Below are positions 29,437 through 51,527 of a stretch of DNA of 63,539 nt, in pieces. The DNA is from Tsukamurella sp. 1534 (GTDB lineage Bacteria > Actinomycetota > Actinomycetes > Mycobacteriales > Mycobacteriaceae). A program made the translations under genes and the position numbers. The stretch spans positions 233,253 to 296,791 of the forward strand of contig NZ_HE997626.1 in NCBI RefSeq assembly GCF_000312385.1, given 5' to 3'. Numbering within the stretch: position 1 is the first letter of the stretch; every line of letters starts with the position of its first letter. The notes beneath the pieces are model-generated. The model was not told the DNA's origin and did not search any database. It saw only the letters and a list, made by a program, of their open reading frames with translations.

Positions 29437-29581
29437 CGGTGCACGTTCCGCGCCGCTACCTGTCGCGGGGCATCTGGGGACGGCTCAGACGTTCCTCCGG
29501 TGCACGTTCCGCGCCGCTACCTGTCGCGGGGCATCTGGGGACGGCTCAGACGTTCCTCCGGTGCACGTTCCGCGCCGCTAC
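29437..29581. repeat. 61-bp tandem repeat, two full copies and a partial third
   Basis: Two identical copies (29437-29497 and 29498-29558) are followed by 23 bp of a third (29559-29581). The third copy runs into the 3' end of the SDR gene, and beyond it the repeat and the gene still resemble each other (both have GGGGCAT at the matching place). The array therefore looks like duplication of the SDR gene end. Confidence 0.9.
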
Positions 29582-30301
29582 TTGATCTCGGGGCATGATC
29601 TGCACCTGATCGATGTTCACGTGCGGCGGGCGGGTGACGGTCCAGGTGACCGCGTCGGCGACGTCGTCGGCGGTGAGGTTGTCCACCCCCTCGTAGATCT
29701 TGTCCGCGGCCTCGGCGTCGCCGCCCAACCGCACCAGGGAGAACTCCGTCTCCACCATGCCCGGATCGATCTCGATGACCCGGATCGGCTCGCCCTTGAG
29801 CTCCAGGCGCAGCACCCGGGTCACGGCGCGGGCGCCGAACTTGGCGGCGTTGTATCCGCCACCGGTCTCGTAGGCCTCAGTCGACGCCACGGACCCGATG
29901 GTCACGACGCTGGCCGCCGGGGACGCGCGCAGCTTGGGCAGCAGGGCCTGGGTCATGCGCAGGATCGACAGGACGTTGATGTCGTACATGCGGGACCAGT
30001 CGGCCTCGTCGGCGGTCTCGATCCTGTCCACGCCGAGGGCACCGCCCGCGTTGTTGACCAGCACGTCCACGGCACCGATCGCGTCGGCGAAGGCCTGCAC
30101 CGACGCCGTGTCCGAGACGTCCAGCGGCAGCGCGGTCACCACGCGCTCGGGGAACTCGGCCTCCAGTTGCGATTTGAGGTCCTCGAGCCGTTCGAGGCGG
30201 CGGGCGCCGATGACCACGTCGAATCCCGCGCGGATCAGGTGCCGTGCGGTCGCGGCGCCGATGCCGCTGCTCGCACCGGTGACGACGGCGATTTCAGCCA
30301 T
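29546..30301 (-). CDS. short-chain dehydrogenase/reductase (SDR)
   Basis: A 251-residue classical SDR. The NAD(P) site is TGASSGIGAATA (about 8-19), with NNAGG, the catalytic serine in IGSVAST and the YxxxK in YNAAK. R40-R41 after the second strand (GARRLERL) suggests NADPH. Substrate unknown. The C-terminal dozen residues (VAARNVHRRNV) are encoded inside the 61-bp tandem repeat and may be a recent extension past an older stop. The start overlaps the DinB-like gene by 8 nt, so the two are co-translated. Confidence 0.9.
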   Translation of the reverse strand: MAEIAVVTGASSGIGAATARHLIRAGFDVVIGARRLERLEDLKSQLEAEFPERVVTALPLDVSDTASVQAFADAIGAVDVLVNNAGGALGVDRIETADEADWSRMYDINVLSILRMTQALLPKLRASPAASVVTIGSVASTEAYETGGGYNAAKFGARAVTRVLRLELKGEPIRVIEIDPGMVETEFSLVRLGGDAEAADKIYEGVDNLTADDVADAVTWTVTRPPHVNIDQVQIMPRDQVAARNVHRRNV

Positions 30302-30946: not shown

Positions 30947-32005
30947 TCACCGGACGGCGGCGGCCAGGTCGCGGAGGACCTCGTCGGTGGTGCCGAAGTC
31001 CATGCACTTGTCGGTGACGGACTGGCCGTAGACCAGCGGGCCCGGGCCGGGCTGCTGCGCGCCCGCCACGAGGAAGGACTCCAGCATGAGGCCGCTGATC
31101 CCCTTCTCGCCCGCGCCGATCCGGGCGGCGATCTCGCGAGCCACCTCGGCCTGGCGCACGTGGTCCTTGCCGGAGTTCGCGTGCGAGCAGTCGACCATCA
31201 CCGACTGCTCCAGGCCCGATGTCGTCAGCGCCTGCGCGGCGTCGGCCACGGAGGCGGCGTCGAAGTTCGGGCCGCCGCGGCCGCCGCGCAGGATGATGTG
31301 GCAGTTGTCGTTGCCCACGGTCTCGACCACGGCGGCGGCACCGTCGTCGTCGGTGCCGAAGAACACGTGCCGGGCCGCGGCGGCGCGGACACCGTCGATC
31401 GCGACCTGGACGTTGCCGTCGGTGGCGTTCTTGAAGCCGATCGGCATCGACAGCCCGGAGGCCAGCTGGCGGTGCACCTGCGACTCGGTGGTGCGGGCGC
31501 CGATCGCGCCCCACGCGACGGTGTCGGCGATGTACTGCGGGCTGGTGGGCTCGAGGAACTCGCAGCCCACGGGCAGGCCGATCTCCAGGATGTCGAGCAG
31601 CAGCCGGCGGGCGGTGCGCAGGCCGCGGGGTACGTCGTACGACTCGTCCATGCCCGGATCGTTGATGAGGCCCTTCCACCCGACGGTGGTGCGGGGCTTC
31701 TCGAAGTACACGCGCATCACGATGAGCAACTCGTCGGCCAGCTCGTCCGCGATCGGCTTGAGCCGGCGGGCGTAGTCGAGGGCGGCCTCGGGGTCGTGCA
31801 CGGAGCACGGCCCCACCACGACGAGGAGCCGCTGGTCGCGGCCCGCGATGACGTCGGCGACGGCGGCGCGGTCGGCCTCGACCTGCGCGGCCAGGCGCGG
31901 GTGCAGAGGGAGTTCCTCGCGGAGCGCGACCGGCGACGGGATCGCGTGGAACGCGGAGACCCGACGGTTCGATGTGGAGGCCGGGCTCTCGAGCTCGATG
32001 GTCAT
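30947..32005 (-). CDS. aroG: 3-deoxy-7-phosphoheptulonate synthase, type I (DAHP synthase)
   Basis: The first enzyme of the shikimate pathway, joining phosphoenolpyruvate and erythrose-4-phosphate. The 352 residues show VVVGPCSVHDPEAALDYA, MRVYFEKPRTTVGWKGL, the KNATDGN segment, ILRGGRGGPNF and MVDCSHANSGKDH, all typical of the AroF/G/H type and unlike the plant-like type II enzyme best known from M. tuberculosis. AGGAAGG precedes the ATG. About 100 nt upstream lies a leader peptide with Tyr-Trp-Arg-Phe codons and a terminator, pointing to attenuation by aromatic amino acids. Confidence 0.95.
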   Translation of the reverse strand: MTIELESPASTSNRRVSAFHAIPSPVALREELPLHPRLAAQVEADRAAVADVIAGRDQRLLVVVGPCSVHDPEAALDYARRLKPIADELADELLIVMRVYFEKPRTTVGWKGLINDPGMDESYDVPRGLRTARRLLLDILEIGLPVGCEFLEPTSPQYIADTVAWGAIGARTTESQVHRQLASGLSMPIGFKNATDGNVQVAIDGVRAAAARHVFFGTDDDGAAAVVETVGNDNCHIILRGGRGGPNFDAASVADAAQALTTSGLEQSVMVDCSHANSGKDHVRQAEVAREIAARIGAGEKGISGLMLESFLVAGAQQPGPGPLVYGQSVTDKCMDFGTTDEVLRDLAAAVR

Positions 32006-32054
32006 GTCAACCTTCCTGGTGGGATACGGCACCAGACGGGACACCCGGTGCCAA

Positions 32055-32082
32055 TGAGAAAGGCAGCGATCGCTCGCTGCCT
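32055..32082 (-). terminator. attenuator terminator in the DAHP synthase leader
   Basis: Read on the minus strand, AGGCAGCGA (32082-32074), a 4-nt loop and TCGCTGCCT (32069-32061) form a perfect 9-bp stem followed by UUUCUC. A 10-base segment inside the leader ORF (GGCTCCGGGT, minus strand) is exactly complementary to ACCCGGAGCC just before this stem, giving a second helix next to or competing with it. Confidence 0.75.
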
Positions 32083-32106
32083 CGGCTCCGGGTTGTGGTG
32101 TTTCGG

Positions 32107-32187
32107 TTATCCGCGCATGCGCGCTTCGCCGACGGCCCCACCCGGAGCCTCGGTAAAGCGCCAATACGAACGCGCGGTCATACCCAC
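32107..32187 (-). CDS. leader peptide of the DAHP synthase gene
   Basis: A 26-residue ORF starting GTG at 32187 (or ATG at 32181, 24 residues) and ending TAA. It contains Ser-Tyr-Trp-Arg-Phe as codons 7-11, placing all three aromatic amino acids within four codons. TATGTT (32200-32195) lies 7 nt before the GTG, so the peptide is probably leaderless and translated as soon as it is transcribed. A terminator stem follows 25 nt after the stop. Aromatic leader peptides upstream of DAHP synthase are known in corynebacteria. Confidence 0.8.
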   Translation of the reverse strand: MGMTARSYWRFTEAPGGAVGEARMRG

Positions 32188-32208
32188 GCCTATGAACATA
32201 GCACAGCC

Positions 32209-34182
32209 TTACCCTGCGATTTCTGTGGCGAGGCTCTCACCGTCGGTCACGGGCAGGGAGCACACGGCGCCGCGACACACGTACGCCGCGGCCCTGCCGT
32301 CGACGGGGCCCCGCCCCTCCAGCAGGGGGTGCGAGTCCTTCTCCCCGGCGACGACGACCGCGCCGCCCGGTGCCAGGCGCCGGGCCTCCGCGAGCAGCGC
32401 GGCGGCCCCGGCACCGTCGGCGACGGCGATCTGCAGCCCGGCGGCGGCCTGTTCCGCGACGGCGAGGTGGTGCCCCGCGCCGCGCGGGACCCGCCGGATC
32501 AGCTCGCCCGAGCGCGCACGGGTGGCCGCGGCGAGCGCCGCGTAGCGCTCCCCGAGCAGCAACTCGGCGTACGTCAACGCCTCGGCCATCAGGCTCGCGC
32601 CCGACGGGGTCGCGCCGTCCGCGGGATCACGCGGACGGGTGAGCAACTGTTCCCCGTCGGCGGGGGCGTCGAACCAGCTCCCCTCCCCCGCGGGGTCGGA
32701 GAACCGGCCGATCGCGGCGTCGAGAATCGTTGCGGCGGAATCGGACCAGGCGGTGTCGCCGGTGCGCTGCGCGAGCGCGAGCAGGCCGGTGACGACCGCG
32801 GCGTAATCCTCGAGCATGCCCGGCGCGTCGCCCGCCCGGCCACCGAGAGAGCTGCGCCGCAACCGGTCTCCGTTCCAGTGCCGGTCCAGCAGGTAGCGCG
32901 CGCACGCCTCGGCGGCGTCAGTCCGGCCCGCCTCGGCGAGCGCGGTGATCGCCAGCCCGTTCCAGACGGACACCACCTTCGCGTCGAGCGCGGGCTGCGG
33001 GCGGCGCGCACGCTCCGCGAACAGCCGCTGCCGGACGTCGGCCAGGCGCACCGGATCGGGCTCGCCCCGCAGCTGCAGCGTGGACGTGCCGTGCTCGAAG
33101 GTGCCACGCTCCGAGACCGCGAAAACCTCTGCCGCCCAGGCACCGTCGGCGTCGCCGAGCACCTCGGCGAGCTGCCCCGGGGTCCACACGTAGGTGGCGC
33201 CCTCCACGGAGTGCCCGTCGACCACGGTGTCGGCGTCCAGCGACGACGCGAGGCCGCCGCCGTCCACGCCGAGGTCGCGGAGCAGGAAATCGGCGGTCTC
33301 CTCCGCGACCCGCAGCGCCAGCGGGGAGCCGGTGCGCCGCCCGAAGTGGGCGTAGAACCGCAGCAGGAGCGCGTTGTCGTAGAGCATCTTCTCGAAGTGC
33401 GGAACCACCCAGTCTGCGTCCACCGCGTACCGCGCGAAGCCGCCGCCGAGCTGGTCGTAGATGCCTCCGCGGGCCATCGCCTCCGCGCACCGCGCCGCCA
33501 CCCCGTAGGCCGTCGGGTCTCCCGTGCGCTCGTGATGCCGCAGCAGGGCCTCGGCGGTGGCGGACGGCGGGAACTTCGGGGCGCGCCCGAACCCGCCCGA
33601 CGGGTCCTCGTCGGCGCAGATCGCCTGCACGGAGGCGGCGAGGTCCTGCCGGGAGGCGGGCGCACCGTCGGGAAGGCCCGCCGCCGCCTGCCGCAGGTGG
33701 TCGGCCACCTTCTCCGAGACCCGGTCCACCTCGTCCCGGCGTTCGCGCCACGTCTCGCCGACGGCGGTGAGCAGCTGCGTGAAACTCGGCTGCCCGCCCC
33801 GCGGCTGCGGCGGGTAGTAGGTGCCGCAGTAGAACGGACGCCCCGACGGGGTGAGGAAGCACGTCATGGGCCAGCCGCCCTGGCCCGTCATGGCGACGGT
33901 GGCGTTCATGTAGATCGCGTCCAGGTCCGGGCGCTCCTCACGGTCCACCTTGATGCAGACGAAGCCTTCGTTCATGAGCCGCGCCGTGGCCTCGTCCTCG
34001 AAGGACCCGTGCGCCATGACGTGGCACCAGTGGCACGCGGCGTAGCCGATGGAGAGCAGGATCGGCACGTCCCGCTCGCGGGCCTCGGCGAGGGCCACGT
34101 CCGACCACTCCCGCCAGTGGACGGGGTTGTCGGCGTGCTGCCGCAGGTAGGGGCTGGTGGCCTGTGCGAGCTGGTTGGTCAC
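32209..34182 (-). CDS. DUF255 thioredoxin-fold protein (YyaL/SSP411 family)
   Basis: A 657-residue protein: an N-terminal thioredoxin-like domain (about 1-165) with HADNPVHWREW and the CxxC motif GYAACHWCHVM, followed by an (alpha/alpha)6 barrel-like domain resembling N-acylglucosamine 2-epimerases (GGGFARYAVDADWVVPHFEKMLYDN). Widely conserved but of unknown function; a redox or sugar-modifying role is possible. The GTG start has TACGCT 6 nt upstream. The gene end overlaps nothing, but the promoter of the aromatic leader peptide begins within 10 nt of its stop. Confidence 0.88.
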   Translation of the reverse strand: MTNQLAQATSPYLRQHADNPVHWREWSDVALAEARERDVPILLSIGYAACHWCHVMAHGSFEDEATARLMNEGFVCIKVDREERPDLDAIYMNATVAMTGQGGWPMTCFLTPSGRPFYCGTYYPPQPRGGQPSFTQLLTAVGETWRERRDEVDRVSEKVADHLRQAAAGLPDGAPASRQDLAASVQAICADEDPSGGFGRAPKFPPSATAEALLRHHERTGDPTAYGVAARCAEAMARGGIYDQLGGGFARYAVDADWVVPHFEKMLYDNALLLRFYAHFGRRTGSPLALRVAEETADFLLRDLGVDGGGLASSLDADTVVDGHSVEGATYVWTPGQLAEVLGDADGAWAAEVFAVSERGTFEHGTSTLQLRGEPDPVRLADVRQRLFAERARRPQPALDAKVVSVWNGLAITALAEAGRTDAAEACARYLLDRHWNGDRLRRSSLGGRAGDAPGMLEDYAAVVTGLLALAQRTGDTAWSDSAATILDAAIGRFSDPAGEGSWFDAPADGEQLLTRPRDPADGATPSGASLMAEALTYAELLLGERYAALAAATRARSGELIRRVPRGAGHHLAVAEQAAAGLQIAVADGAGAAALLAEARRLAPGGAVVVAGEKDSHPLLEGRGPVDGRAAAYVCRGAVCSLPVTDGESLATEIAG

Positions 34183-49084: not shown

Positions 49085-49158
49085 GCGCCCCCATAGCCCA
49101 ATTGGCAGAGGCGGCGGACTTAAAATCCGCGCAGTGTCGGTTCGAGTCCGACTGGGGG
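49085..49158 (+). tRNA. tRNA-Leu(UAA), unusual short variable arm
   Basis: 74 nt. Seven-pair acceptor stem (GCCCCCA/TGGGGGC) with discriminator A, a D arm of the leucine style (AATTGGCAGA loop, three stem pairs), five-pair anticodon stem GCGGA/TCCGC with loop CTTAAAA (anticodon TAA), a variable region of only about five bases and a perfect T stem GTCGG/CCGAC. CCA is not encoded. The anticodon reads UUA, very rare in this genome. Bacterial tRNA-Leu normally has a long variable arm, so charging identity deserves a check. Confidence 0.88.
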
Positions 49159-49161
49159 CAC

Positions 49162-49260: not shown

Positions 49261-49673
49261 GGGTGCTCCTCGGTGGTGCACGGATCCCTTCCGGCTCCAC
49301 CTTCCACAGTGGCACAATTCCGAGGTCCGCGTGCTGGAGAAGTAGCGGGCTTCGCGGCCCGAGATATGGACAAGGCCGGCGGTGCCTGTAACCACACCCC
49401 GGCCTCTAGTGCAACACGCGTATTTACAGATTCGCGGTAGACTTGTCGTTATTTTAGCACGGCATCAATAGCGTCTTATCCGGACCTCGATCAGACCCGT
49501 GATTCACGCTCCCGCGATCATCTGCTCCTCCCGCGATCAATGCCTGCTCCCGCGCGACCTCCCGCGATCGTCGTTCCTTCCCGCGATCGCCATGGTGATC
49601 GCGGGAACGGCGCGCTGTCGCGGGAAGCCGAGCGGTCGGCGGACCGACGGGCGGGCGGACCGTCGGGGCGGTT
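49261..49673. other. 413-nt region without a convincing gene
   Basis: No supported reading frame. The right half, about 49420-49480, is AT-rich for this genome, and 49511-49607 carries an iterated CCCGCGATC motif. It contains the promoter of the 32-residue ORF and the 3' region of the RibD-type gene. Confidence 0.6.
49511..49607. repeat. iteron-like array of CCCGCGATC
   Basis: CCCGCGATC starts at 49511, 49530, 49561 and 49580; a variant (CCCGCGCGA) lies at 49549, and the inverse GATCGCGGG at 49597-49605. Spacings are 19, 19, 12 and 19 bp. The last direct and the inverted copy form 11-bp arms (49578-49588, 49597-49607) around an 8-bp centre with CCATGG. Confidence 0.75.
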
Positions 49674-51270: not shown

Positions 51271-51466
51271 GGCCCCGACGGTACTGAGACTGCTCGATCA
51301 CGCAAGTTCCGACAACGGTGGCTGTCGCGCGCTTGACGGGATGCCGCTGGGCACAGCGCGATCCGGGTGCGGGGCATTCGGTGTCGTCAAGTCGCGACGA
51401 TCCACCCCACGAGCGGAGTTGCCATCGCACGCGGGTCGGGTACCCTCGAAGCCGTCGACAGGACAT

Positions 51467-51508
51467 CCGGACGAGGCGCACCGTACCCGGTCAGCGACAA
51501 GACGGTGC
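51467..51508 (+). ncRNA. guanidine-III (ykkC-III) riboswitch
   Basis: The 42-nt element follows the ykkC-III consensus almost exactly: CCGGACGAGG, then GCACCGTACCCGGTCAG, GACAAGACGGTGC, with the double pseudoknot pairings CCGG/CCGG and GCACCGT/ACGGTGC. It binds free guanidinium. It lies 22 nt upstream of an exporter of the matching type, which strongly supports the call. Control is probably at translation: the 3' strand can alternatively pair with bases beyond the ribosome binding site. Confidence 0.93.
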
Positions 51509-51527
51509 GAACGTCAAGGAGGTTCGC
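51507..51527 (+). promoter_or_regulatory. ribosome-binding-site sequestering hairpin (riboswitch expression platform)
   Basis: GCGAAC (51507-51512) and GTTCGC (51522-51527) form a 6-bp stem whose loop holds most of AAGGAGG (51516-51522), the ribosome binding site. The first bases of the stem (51507-51508) are also part of the aptamer's 3' strand, so ligand-bound aptamer and closed hairpin exclude each other. Confidence 0.7.

Follow-up and report, generated by a model that had tools for sequence, protein, structure and literature searches.

The leader of the Corynebacterium glutamicum aroF operon, aroR, was reportedly described by Neshat et al. in 2014. A more distant precedent is the erm-type translational attenuator, in which a drug signal acts through a chain of mutually exclusive helices that ends at the Shine-Dalgarno sequence. 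For C. glutamicum, the available parts of PMC11802643 and PMC11525245 describe a Phe-dependent attenuation of aroF through aroR; the former, a review, states that aroF transcription responds to limitation of Phe and not of Tyr, and the latter likewise places the control at transcription. The available part of PMC7356990 terms aroR a translational regulatory leader peptide, and the leader is also covered in the portion of PMC4046766 that was accessible.

Other actinobacterial leader peptides (trpL, ilvL, leuL and further ones; S. lividans and corynebacteria) resemble the leader studied here in being short, often leaderless ORFs upstream of an amino acid biosynthesis gene but belong to other pathways (PMC8079986, PMC5784534 and PMC1262725, in the parts available). 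The 2005 survey (PMC1262725) listed candidate actinobacterial leaders of Trp, Cys, Leu and ileS genes; for the remaining amino acid pathways, its accessible text reported no conserved structures ahead of the genes. No aro leader appears in the leader lists for S. lividans (PMC8079986) and C. diphtheriae (PMC5784534) as available, nor are aroF, aroG or aroH named in the accessible main text of two surveys of leaders and premature terminators (PMC4833913 and PMC2965389). In the open-licence PMC papers that were searched, an aromatic leader upstream of a DAHP synthase was found described for C. glutamicum alone.

The window analysed in this study is a 63,539-nt stretch of DNA from Tsukamurella sp. 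1534, in which a preliminary description had proposed an aromatic leader peptide and attenuator upstream of a DAHP synthase gene. We confirmed that the aromatic leader and the attenuator-like region in front of this gene are real. The features are as follows, each with the evidence on which it rests.

32195..32200, minus strand: -10 hexamer TATGTT, 7 nt upstream of the GTG; predicted leaderless start at 32187.
32107..32187, minus strand: leader ORF of 26 codons plus TAA, VGMTARSYWRFTEAPGGAVGEARMRG (read from the sequence; relatives carry it).
32155..32166, minus strand: control codons TAT TGG CGC TTT, that is Tyr Trp Arg Phe; the Trp codon starts 14 nt upstream of A.
32140..32149, minus strand: segment A, GGCUCCGGGU, within the ORF and right behind the control codons (partner-swap and pair-change tests).
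32134..32139, minus strand: segment A' (GGGGCC), local hairpin partner of A (folding).
32084..32093, minus strand: segment B, ACCCGGAGCC, predicted to pair with A or C (covariation with both).
32053..32083, minus strand: hairpin T (stem 32083-32060) with a short U-rich tail, a putative terminator or pause hairpin (folding and tail counts).
32043..32052, minus strand: segment C, GGCACCGGGU, 3' of T, predicted to pair with B or D (partner-swap tests and window fold).
32028..32035, minus strand: segment D, CUGGUGCC, predicted to pair with C or the Shine-Dalgarno region (partner-swap tests and window fold).
32011..32021, minus strand: segment E, CACCAGGAAGG, containing the Shine-Dalgarno sequence AGGAAGG (partner-swap tests and window fold).
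30947..32005, minus strand: type I DAHP synthase gene (aroFGH family), the proposed controlled gene (NCBIfam and Pfam).

The leader ORF runs from GTG at 32187 to TAA at 32109-32107, with a further in-frame ATG at 32181. As the preliminary description had stated, its 26 codons include those for Tyr, Trp and Phe (TAT-TGG-CGC-TTT, 32166-32155), the hexamer TATGTT is present 7 nt upstream of the ORF at 32200-32195, and a segment of the ORF is complementary to the 10 bases just before the hairpin, with segment A (GGCTCCGGGT) matching segment B (ACCCGGAGCC) at 10 of 10 positions. The perfect 9-bp stem followed by TTTCTC that had been placed upstream of the DAHP synthase gene was also seen; hairpin T lies directly 3' of segment B, has nine perfect pairs (AGGCAGCGA / TCGCTGCCT) and spans 32083-32060 with a tenth, G-T, pair included. 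The DAHP synthase gene begins with ATG at 32005, preceded by AGGAAGG, and its product was assigned to type I by NCBIfam TIGR00034 (aroFGH, 506.8 bits) and Pfam DAHP_synth_1 (294.3 bits). The RNA from 32187 to 32000 surpassed 200 of 200 dinucleotide shuffles in folding (z of -4.1).

A simple consensus scan of 31900-32400 called no sigma-70-type promoter and passed over hairpin T, whose tail TTTCTC is weak; its single terminator-like call was at 32189-32172 on the minus strand, inside the leader ORF. The leader region of the window had no Rfam match at the gathering score and none up to an E value of 5, and the two leader peptides that were queried against NCBIfam and Pfam gave no match. Elsewhere in the window, a Guanidine-III riboswitch was found at 51446-51511 (62.8 bits) upstream of an ORF resembling a small multidrug-resistance-type exporter (family judged by eye), which appears to be an ordinary guanidine exporter arrangement. 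Repeats were observed at 29437-29596 (a 61-bp unit, 2.6 copies, 96% matches) and at 49508-49638 (two short tandem arrays with units of 19 and 18 bp), the latter near a tRNA gene at 49087-49160.

A protein search detected DAHP synthase in 16 of 16 genomes of the genus and 127 of 151 genomes of the family. The leader was present in 95 of 96 upstream regions from the GTDB family, a set made up of 16 regions from the genus, 20 from the family fetched by search and 60 fetched by place, with 38 of 128 family places outside it. Among the best 80 named loci (of 589), 63 carry a related leader, 58 of them recognised by pattern and 5 added later; some records are shared by the family set and the named-locus set. 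No leader was recognised in the other 17 of these best 80, which comprise all eight Bifidobacterium loci (0 of 8 with a leader), two from Nocardiopsis, one each from Thermobifida and Gryllotalpicola, and five MAG or single-cell records, two of them non-actinobacterial by name. Loci L017 and L018 (fragment, weak match) and L225 (weak match) were excluded from the counts and L118 and L140 (misplaced start) from the start-codon tests, as were loci with no assigned start or with a T-to-start distance outside 40-110 nt.

Two types of leader were distinguished. Type 1 (YWRFxxAPGGA, WYWRF or similar) occurs in Tsukamurella, Mycobacterium, Gordonia, Williamsia, Dietzia, Cellulosimicrobium, Streptomyces, Glycomyces, Kribbella and others, and in Corynebacterium as RFYF; type 2 (YFWFSxPAPGG or similar) occurs in Rhodococcus, Nocardia, Amycolatopsis, Pseudonocardia and others. 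Of the two type I DAHP synthase genes in genome G090 (L097 and L098), only the copy at L098 is preceded by a leader. A contig labelled Acidobacteriaceae (CAJCHX010000355.1, locus L101) encodes a DAHP synthase 85% identical to that of the window together with a Tsukamurella-like leader, and was probably mis-binned.

A covariance model, R1, was built from 34 type-1 sequences, and its consensus fold picked both A:B and T unaided. With stricter filters, R1 matched 46 of 296 class genomes, giving 48 matches in all; 44 of the 46 genomes had one match, and in G253 and G367 a second, weak match lay at that position on the opposite strand. Of the 48, the best 30 all lay upstream of a DAHP synthase on the same strand (30 of 30, several of these genomes having supplied model sequences), which bears out the proposed link to this enzyme. 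Both the aromatic codons and the stem, on whose conservation the preliminary description had depended, were kept in relatives, and compensatory changes were seen. Short ORFs are common, as a chance ORF and hairpin in GC-rich DNA would require, but a chance origin is ruled out because the leader is conserved across relatives, and the covariation described below also speaks against it; its probability is negligible.

In 36 of 36 type-1 and 22 of 22 type-2 clusters (58 of 58), TANNNT ended 6 to 8 nt upstream of an in-frame ATG or GTG. The shuffle expectations were 1.6 (type 1) and 0.8 (type 2), values that are somewhat low because the nearest start codon alone was counted. This is the spacing expected for transcription starting at the start codon, and a leaderless mRNA is therefore predicted, as had been proposed from the window.

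The type-1 control codons (36 clusters) comprised 36 TTT versus 4 TTC and 38 TAT versus 1 TAC, whereas the background in 81 DAHP synthase genes was 29:522 for TTT:TTC and 23:382 for TAT:TAC. Since TTT and TAT are rare in the DAHP synthase genes yet dominate the type-1 leaders, rare synonyms have been kept, to slow decoding or else to suit the RNA structure. In the 34 type-2 leaders, TAT:TAC was 31:3 and the Phe codons were mixed (TTT:TTC, 38:27). Tyr, Trp and Phe were all present in 32 of 36 type-1 clusters and in 33 of 34 type-2 leaders, and one peptide may sense the three together, as the preliminary description had proposed. The codon 14 nt upstream of A was Trp in 25 of 36 type-1 and 22 of 22 type-2 clusters, suggesting that Trp may be dominant among the amino acids sensed. 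In Corynebacterium, the same position was occupied by Phe in 11 of 14 rows, namely those read in frame; out-of-frame rows in this count were L209, L214 and L219 from Corynebacterium and also at least L033 and L138. The footprint of a ribosome with its A site on a codon 14 nt upstream of A should end just before A.

The wide conservation of APGG after the aromatic cluster raises the question of whether the peptide itself is active, for instance as a small protein or as a sequence-driven ribosome arrest peptide. However, third codon positions are conserved too, the APGG codons fall on RNA segment A and its loop, B changes in step with A, and the leaders of Corynebacterium and Kribbella differ in residues yet keep A:B. 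An active peptide is therefore quite improbable.

To relate the window to aroR, we used the aroR upstream primer sequence given in the available part of PMC7356990, which was found in 1 of 151 genomes of the G047 genus, at locus L209; this genus was taken as Corynebacterium on the basis of an enzyme 93% identical to that of C. amycolatum. The aroF start at L209 is slightly unlike the ATCC 13032 primer, indicating a close relative and not that strain. By eye, the L209 leader reads MFAARFYFMSGSGAF..., with TAAGGT eight bases upstream of the ATG; its segment A (GGCTCCGG) is the same as in the window, its segment B (TCCGGAGTC) includes one G-U pair, and the hairpin is followed by six U. Inspection by eye showed no segment C in either L209 or C. 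amycolatum (L117). Given the shared A, B, hairpin and -10, we took C. glutamicum aroR and the window leader as one family, and by these features the Corynebacterium form is the published aroR attenuator, making the leader part of a wider family with a known member. The RFYF form was found, as judged by eye, in 13 of 15 strongly matching Corynebacterium loci; of the other two, L220 has Tyr-Tyr alone by eye and L224 has none. The suggestion that a leaderless YWRF leader is a distinct version found no support, since YWRF is the common form in the relatives covered here and the C. glutamicum relative L209 shares A, B, hairpin and -10 by eye. The window leader is thus like aroR in its clustered aromatic codons upstream of a type I DAHP synthase and in its RNA core of A, B and hairpin (by eye). 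It differs in its control codons: aroR has FYF and no Trp, and in the YWRF of the window the Trp codon lies 14 nt upstream of A.

In an alignment of 34 sequences, 97.4% of the cells belonging to A:B and T were paired. Twelve pairs had changed on both sides versus 5.1 in shuffles, and the covariation score was 0.252 versus 0.099, with 0 of 500 shuffles as high. Within A:B, 6 of 10 pairs are invariant and 3 have double changes. An alignment in which segment C was misplaced in rows outside Mycobacteriaceae was kept out of these counts.

The pairings were further assessed by a partner-swap test, in which the duplex energy of two segments within a species is compared with that obtained when partners are exchanged between species, the kinship of the sequences being handled in part only. 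Across 36 clusters, A:B (z of -7.9) and B:C (z of -4.9) both reached the smallest possible p value of 0.0002, and four controls gave p values of 0.19 to 0.86. For type 2 (22 clusters), the values were 0.0004 for A:B and 0.010 for B:C. C:D (p of 0.0004) and D:E (p of 0.0002) were evaluated in 24 clusters, 3 of 27 having been dropped for segments that were too short, with six controls at 0.077 to 0.59. When swaps were stratified, either within Mycobacteriaceae or among the others, the p values were 0.0002 for A:B and B:C, 0.0006 for C:D and 0.0026 for D:E; seven of eight controls were flat (0.13 to 0.67) and C:E gave 0.032. These tests supersede the earliest version, in which the C and D windows overlapped and a strict pattern dropped the most divergent sequences; there, the pairing of A' with E, one of four controls for type 1, failed at a p of 0.002, and among 8 type-2 clusters C:D alone passed (p of 0.017).

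The A:B pairing, initially noted as a single complementarity in the window, therefore covaries beyond both shuffles and swapped partners. Taken together, the partner-swap results indicate alternative partners for each of three segments (A or C for B, B or D for C, and C or the Shine-Dalgarno region for D), which suggests a chain of alternative helices running from the leader to the ribosome-binding site. The extension of A:B into the 5' arm of T also gained more pairing in matched than in swapped species (p of 0.0002; stratified p of 0.0056), with a p of 0.059 for the flanks of A and B by themselves.

At least four U were present within 9 nt after T in 75 of 85 type-1 sequences versus 9.9% of background windows, and 10 of the 85 hairpins have no U-rich tail. 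Tail-less type-1 hairpins were seen at L118 and L140 (Dietzia), at L039, L053 and L060 (inferred genus of L140), and at L057, L061, L064 and L068; such leaders are natural cases bearing on whether T acts as a terminator. In type 2, a U-rich tail followed 0 of 32 recognised hairpins, tails being scored where the hairpin-arm pattern matched (32 of 34). Two loci with type-2-like codons, L096 and L178, nevertheless show by eye a terminator-like hairpin 3' of B, complete with a run of U.

In computed ensembles, covering A raised the expected number of B:C pairs from 2.3, with A free, to 8.6, a rise seen in 33 of 36 clusters, and C:D was greater with A free in 25 of 27 clusters. The minimum-energy fold of the window with A free contained A:B, T and C:D; with A covered it contained B:C around T, with D paired both beside and into the Shine-Dalgarno sequence. 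The probability of T was 0.87 to 1.00 in the free, stalled and covered states of 48 of 48 type-1 sequences, which argues against displacement by A:B at equilibrium. Thermodynamic exclusion of T by A:B was accordingly ruled out, T being folded in every computed state. A:B overlaps T solely through the weak extension into the T 5' arm, which in these models cannot displace T at equilibrium and could act kinetically.

These results bear on plain transcription attenuation as in C. glutamicum aroR, with A:B and its extension as the antiterminator, T as the terminator and the RNA beyond T incidental. The U-rich tails of type 1 and the covarying extension into T are consistent with it, as are the Corynebacterium RFYF leaders, which have A, B and a strong T too, and the accessible text of PMC11802643 and PMC11525245, where aroF attenuation in C. 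glutamicum is reported as transcriptional. B:C, C:D and D:E covary, however, and involve RNA beyond T, 32 of 34 type-2 leaders have no U-rich tail after the hairpin, and T is folded in all computed states. We regard this explanation as possible, at less than even odds.

In a first test, Shine-Dalgarno accessibility showed no difference in 20 type-1 clusters (0.39 versus 0.41, p of 0.52), in 8 type-2 clusters (p of 0.125) or in 48 type-1 sequences (p of 0.26). A small difference was found in 14 type-2 sequences (10 of 14, p of 0.021, means equal to two decimals), and another slight one, 0.37 versus 0.30, in 13 Tsukamurella or Tsukamurella-like sequences (10 of 13, p of 0.024). Scrambling A caused no significant change in this accessibility. 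In a second test, of 27 clusters, the Shine-Dalgarno sequence was slightly more open with A free (0.49 versus 0.44, 20 of 27), the start codon was less open (0.44 versus 0.60), and pairs of the Shine-Dalgarno region were not fewer (6.2 versus 5.5). Pairing of D to the Shine-Dalgarno sequence did not rise in the computed off state. In the window itself, the Shine-Dalgarno region was unpaired at 0.57 with A free versus 0.20. Equilibrium accessibility was rejected as proof of a relay, being null or weak in the first test and mixed in the second.

Translational attenuation alone, in which T would serve for pausing or spacing and the relay would stop at the Shine-Dalgarno sequence, would account for the missing terminator tail in 32 of 34 type-2 leaders, the covariation of D:E and the more open Shine-Dalgarno region of the window with A free, and would suit the term translational regulatory leader peptide used for aroR in the available part of PMC7356990. 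Against it, mean accessibility shows slight shifts, none, or shifts of opposite sign, the U-rich tails of type 1 are far above background, L096 and L178 have their terminator-like hairpin (by eye), and PMC11802643 and PMC11525245, as far as available, name transcription for C. glutamicum. We consider it unlikely. For most type-2 leaders, a translational output is nonetheless likely, and the shares of termination and translation in the output probably differ between lineages.

The best explanation, to which we assign a probability of roughly 0.8, is that the leader acts as a ribosome-mediated attenuator like aroR, by which DAHP synthase expression would be set by the supply of charged aromatic tRNA. 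Sequence comparison established the clustered aromatic codons, the -10 at leaderless spacing, the predicted pairing A:A' or A:B, the position of T after B, and the mutually exclusive pairings predicted for B with C, C with D and D with the Shine-Dalgarno region. The sensing half of the proposal is thus well supported by comparison, and its output would be transcriptional, translational or both.

Under a shortage of Trp or Tyr (or Phe), the ribosome would halt with its front edge just upstream of A. A would then capture B, and T would be opposed, the extended A:B helix overlapping its base; in RNA reading past T, A:B would leave C free for D and thereby release the ribosome-binding site. When amino acids are sufficient, A would be occupied or folded back and B free, and T would terminate or pause transcription; in longer RNA, B:C would form and D could shut the ribosome-binding site.

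A broader version of this attenuator is a class-wide actinobacterial relay, in which the leaderless ORF drives A:A', A:B, B:C, C:D and D:Shine-Dalgarno, the position of the ribosome at the codon 14 nt before A governs both T and the ribosome-binding site, and the amino acid sensed is that of this codon, Trp in most lineages and Phe in Corynebacterium. Phe at this codon would explain the response to Phe and not Tyr reported for Corynebacterium. We offer the class-wide relay tentatively and consider it rather doubtful.

The proposed attenuator is like the classical trp-type attenuator in that the position of the ribosome would select between exclusive RNA helices, and differs from it in that A, next to the control codons, pairs with B, the overlap with T is slight, and covarying pairings extend past T to the ribosome-binding site. 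With the erm type it would have in common a chain of exclusive helices reaching the Shine-Dalgarno sequence, whereas here the signal would be codon starvation, the segments are more numerous, and type 1 has a terminator-like hairpin within the chain. What appears to be new, on sequence grounds, is the -10 spaced for a leaderless start in 58 of 58 clusters, the rare TTT and TAT codons of type 1, and the covariation of A:B, B:C, C:D and D with the Shine-Dalgarno region.

DAHP synthase governs the flow into all aromatic amino acids. The leader would represent a conserved regulator of this step in many actinobacterial genera, with a mostly fixed distance from codon to switch and with predicted pairings that reach the ribosome-binding site. 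With it one can test directly which amino acid is sensed and whether a single leader controls both termination and translation, and it is a natural target in the engineering of aromatic production.
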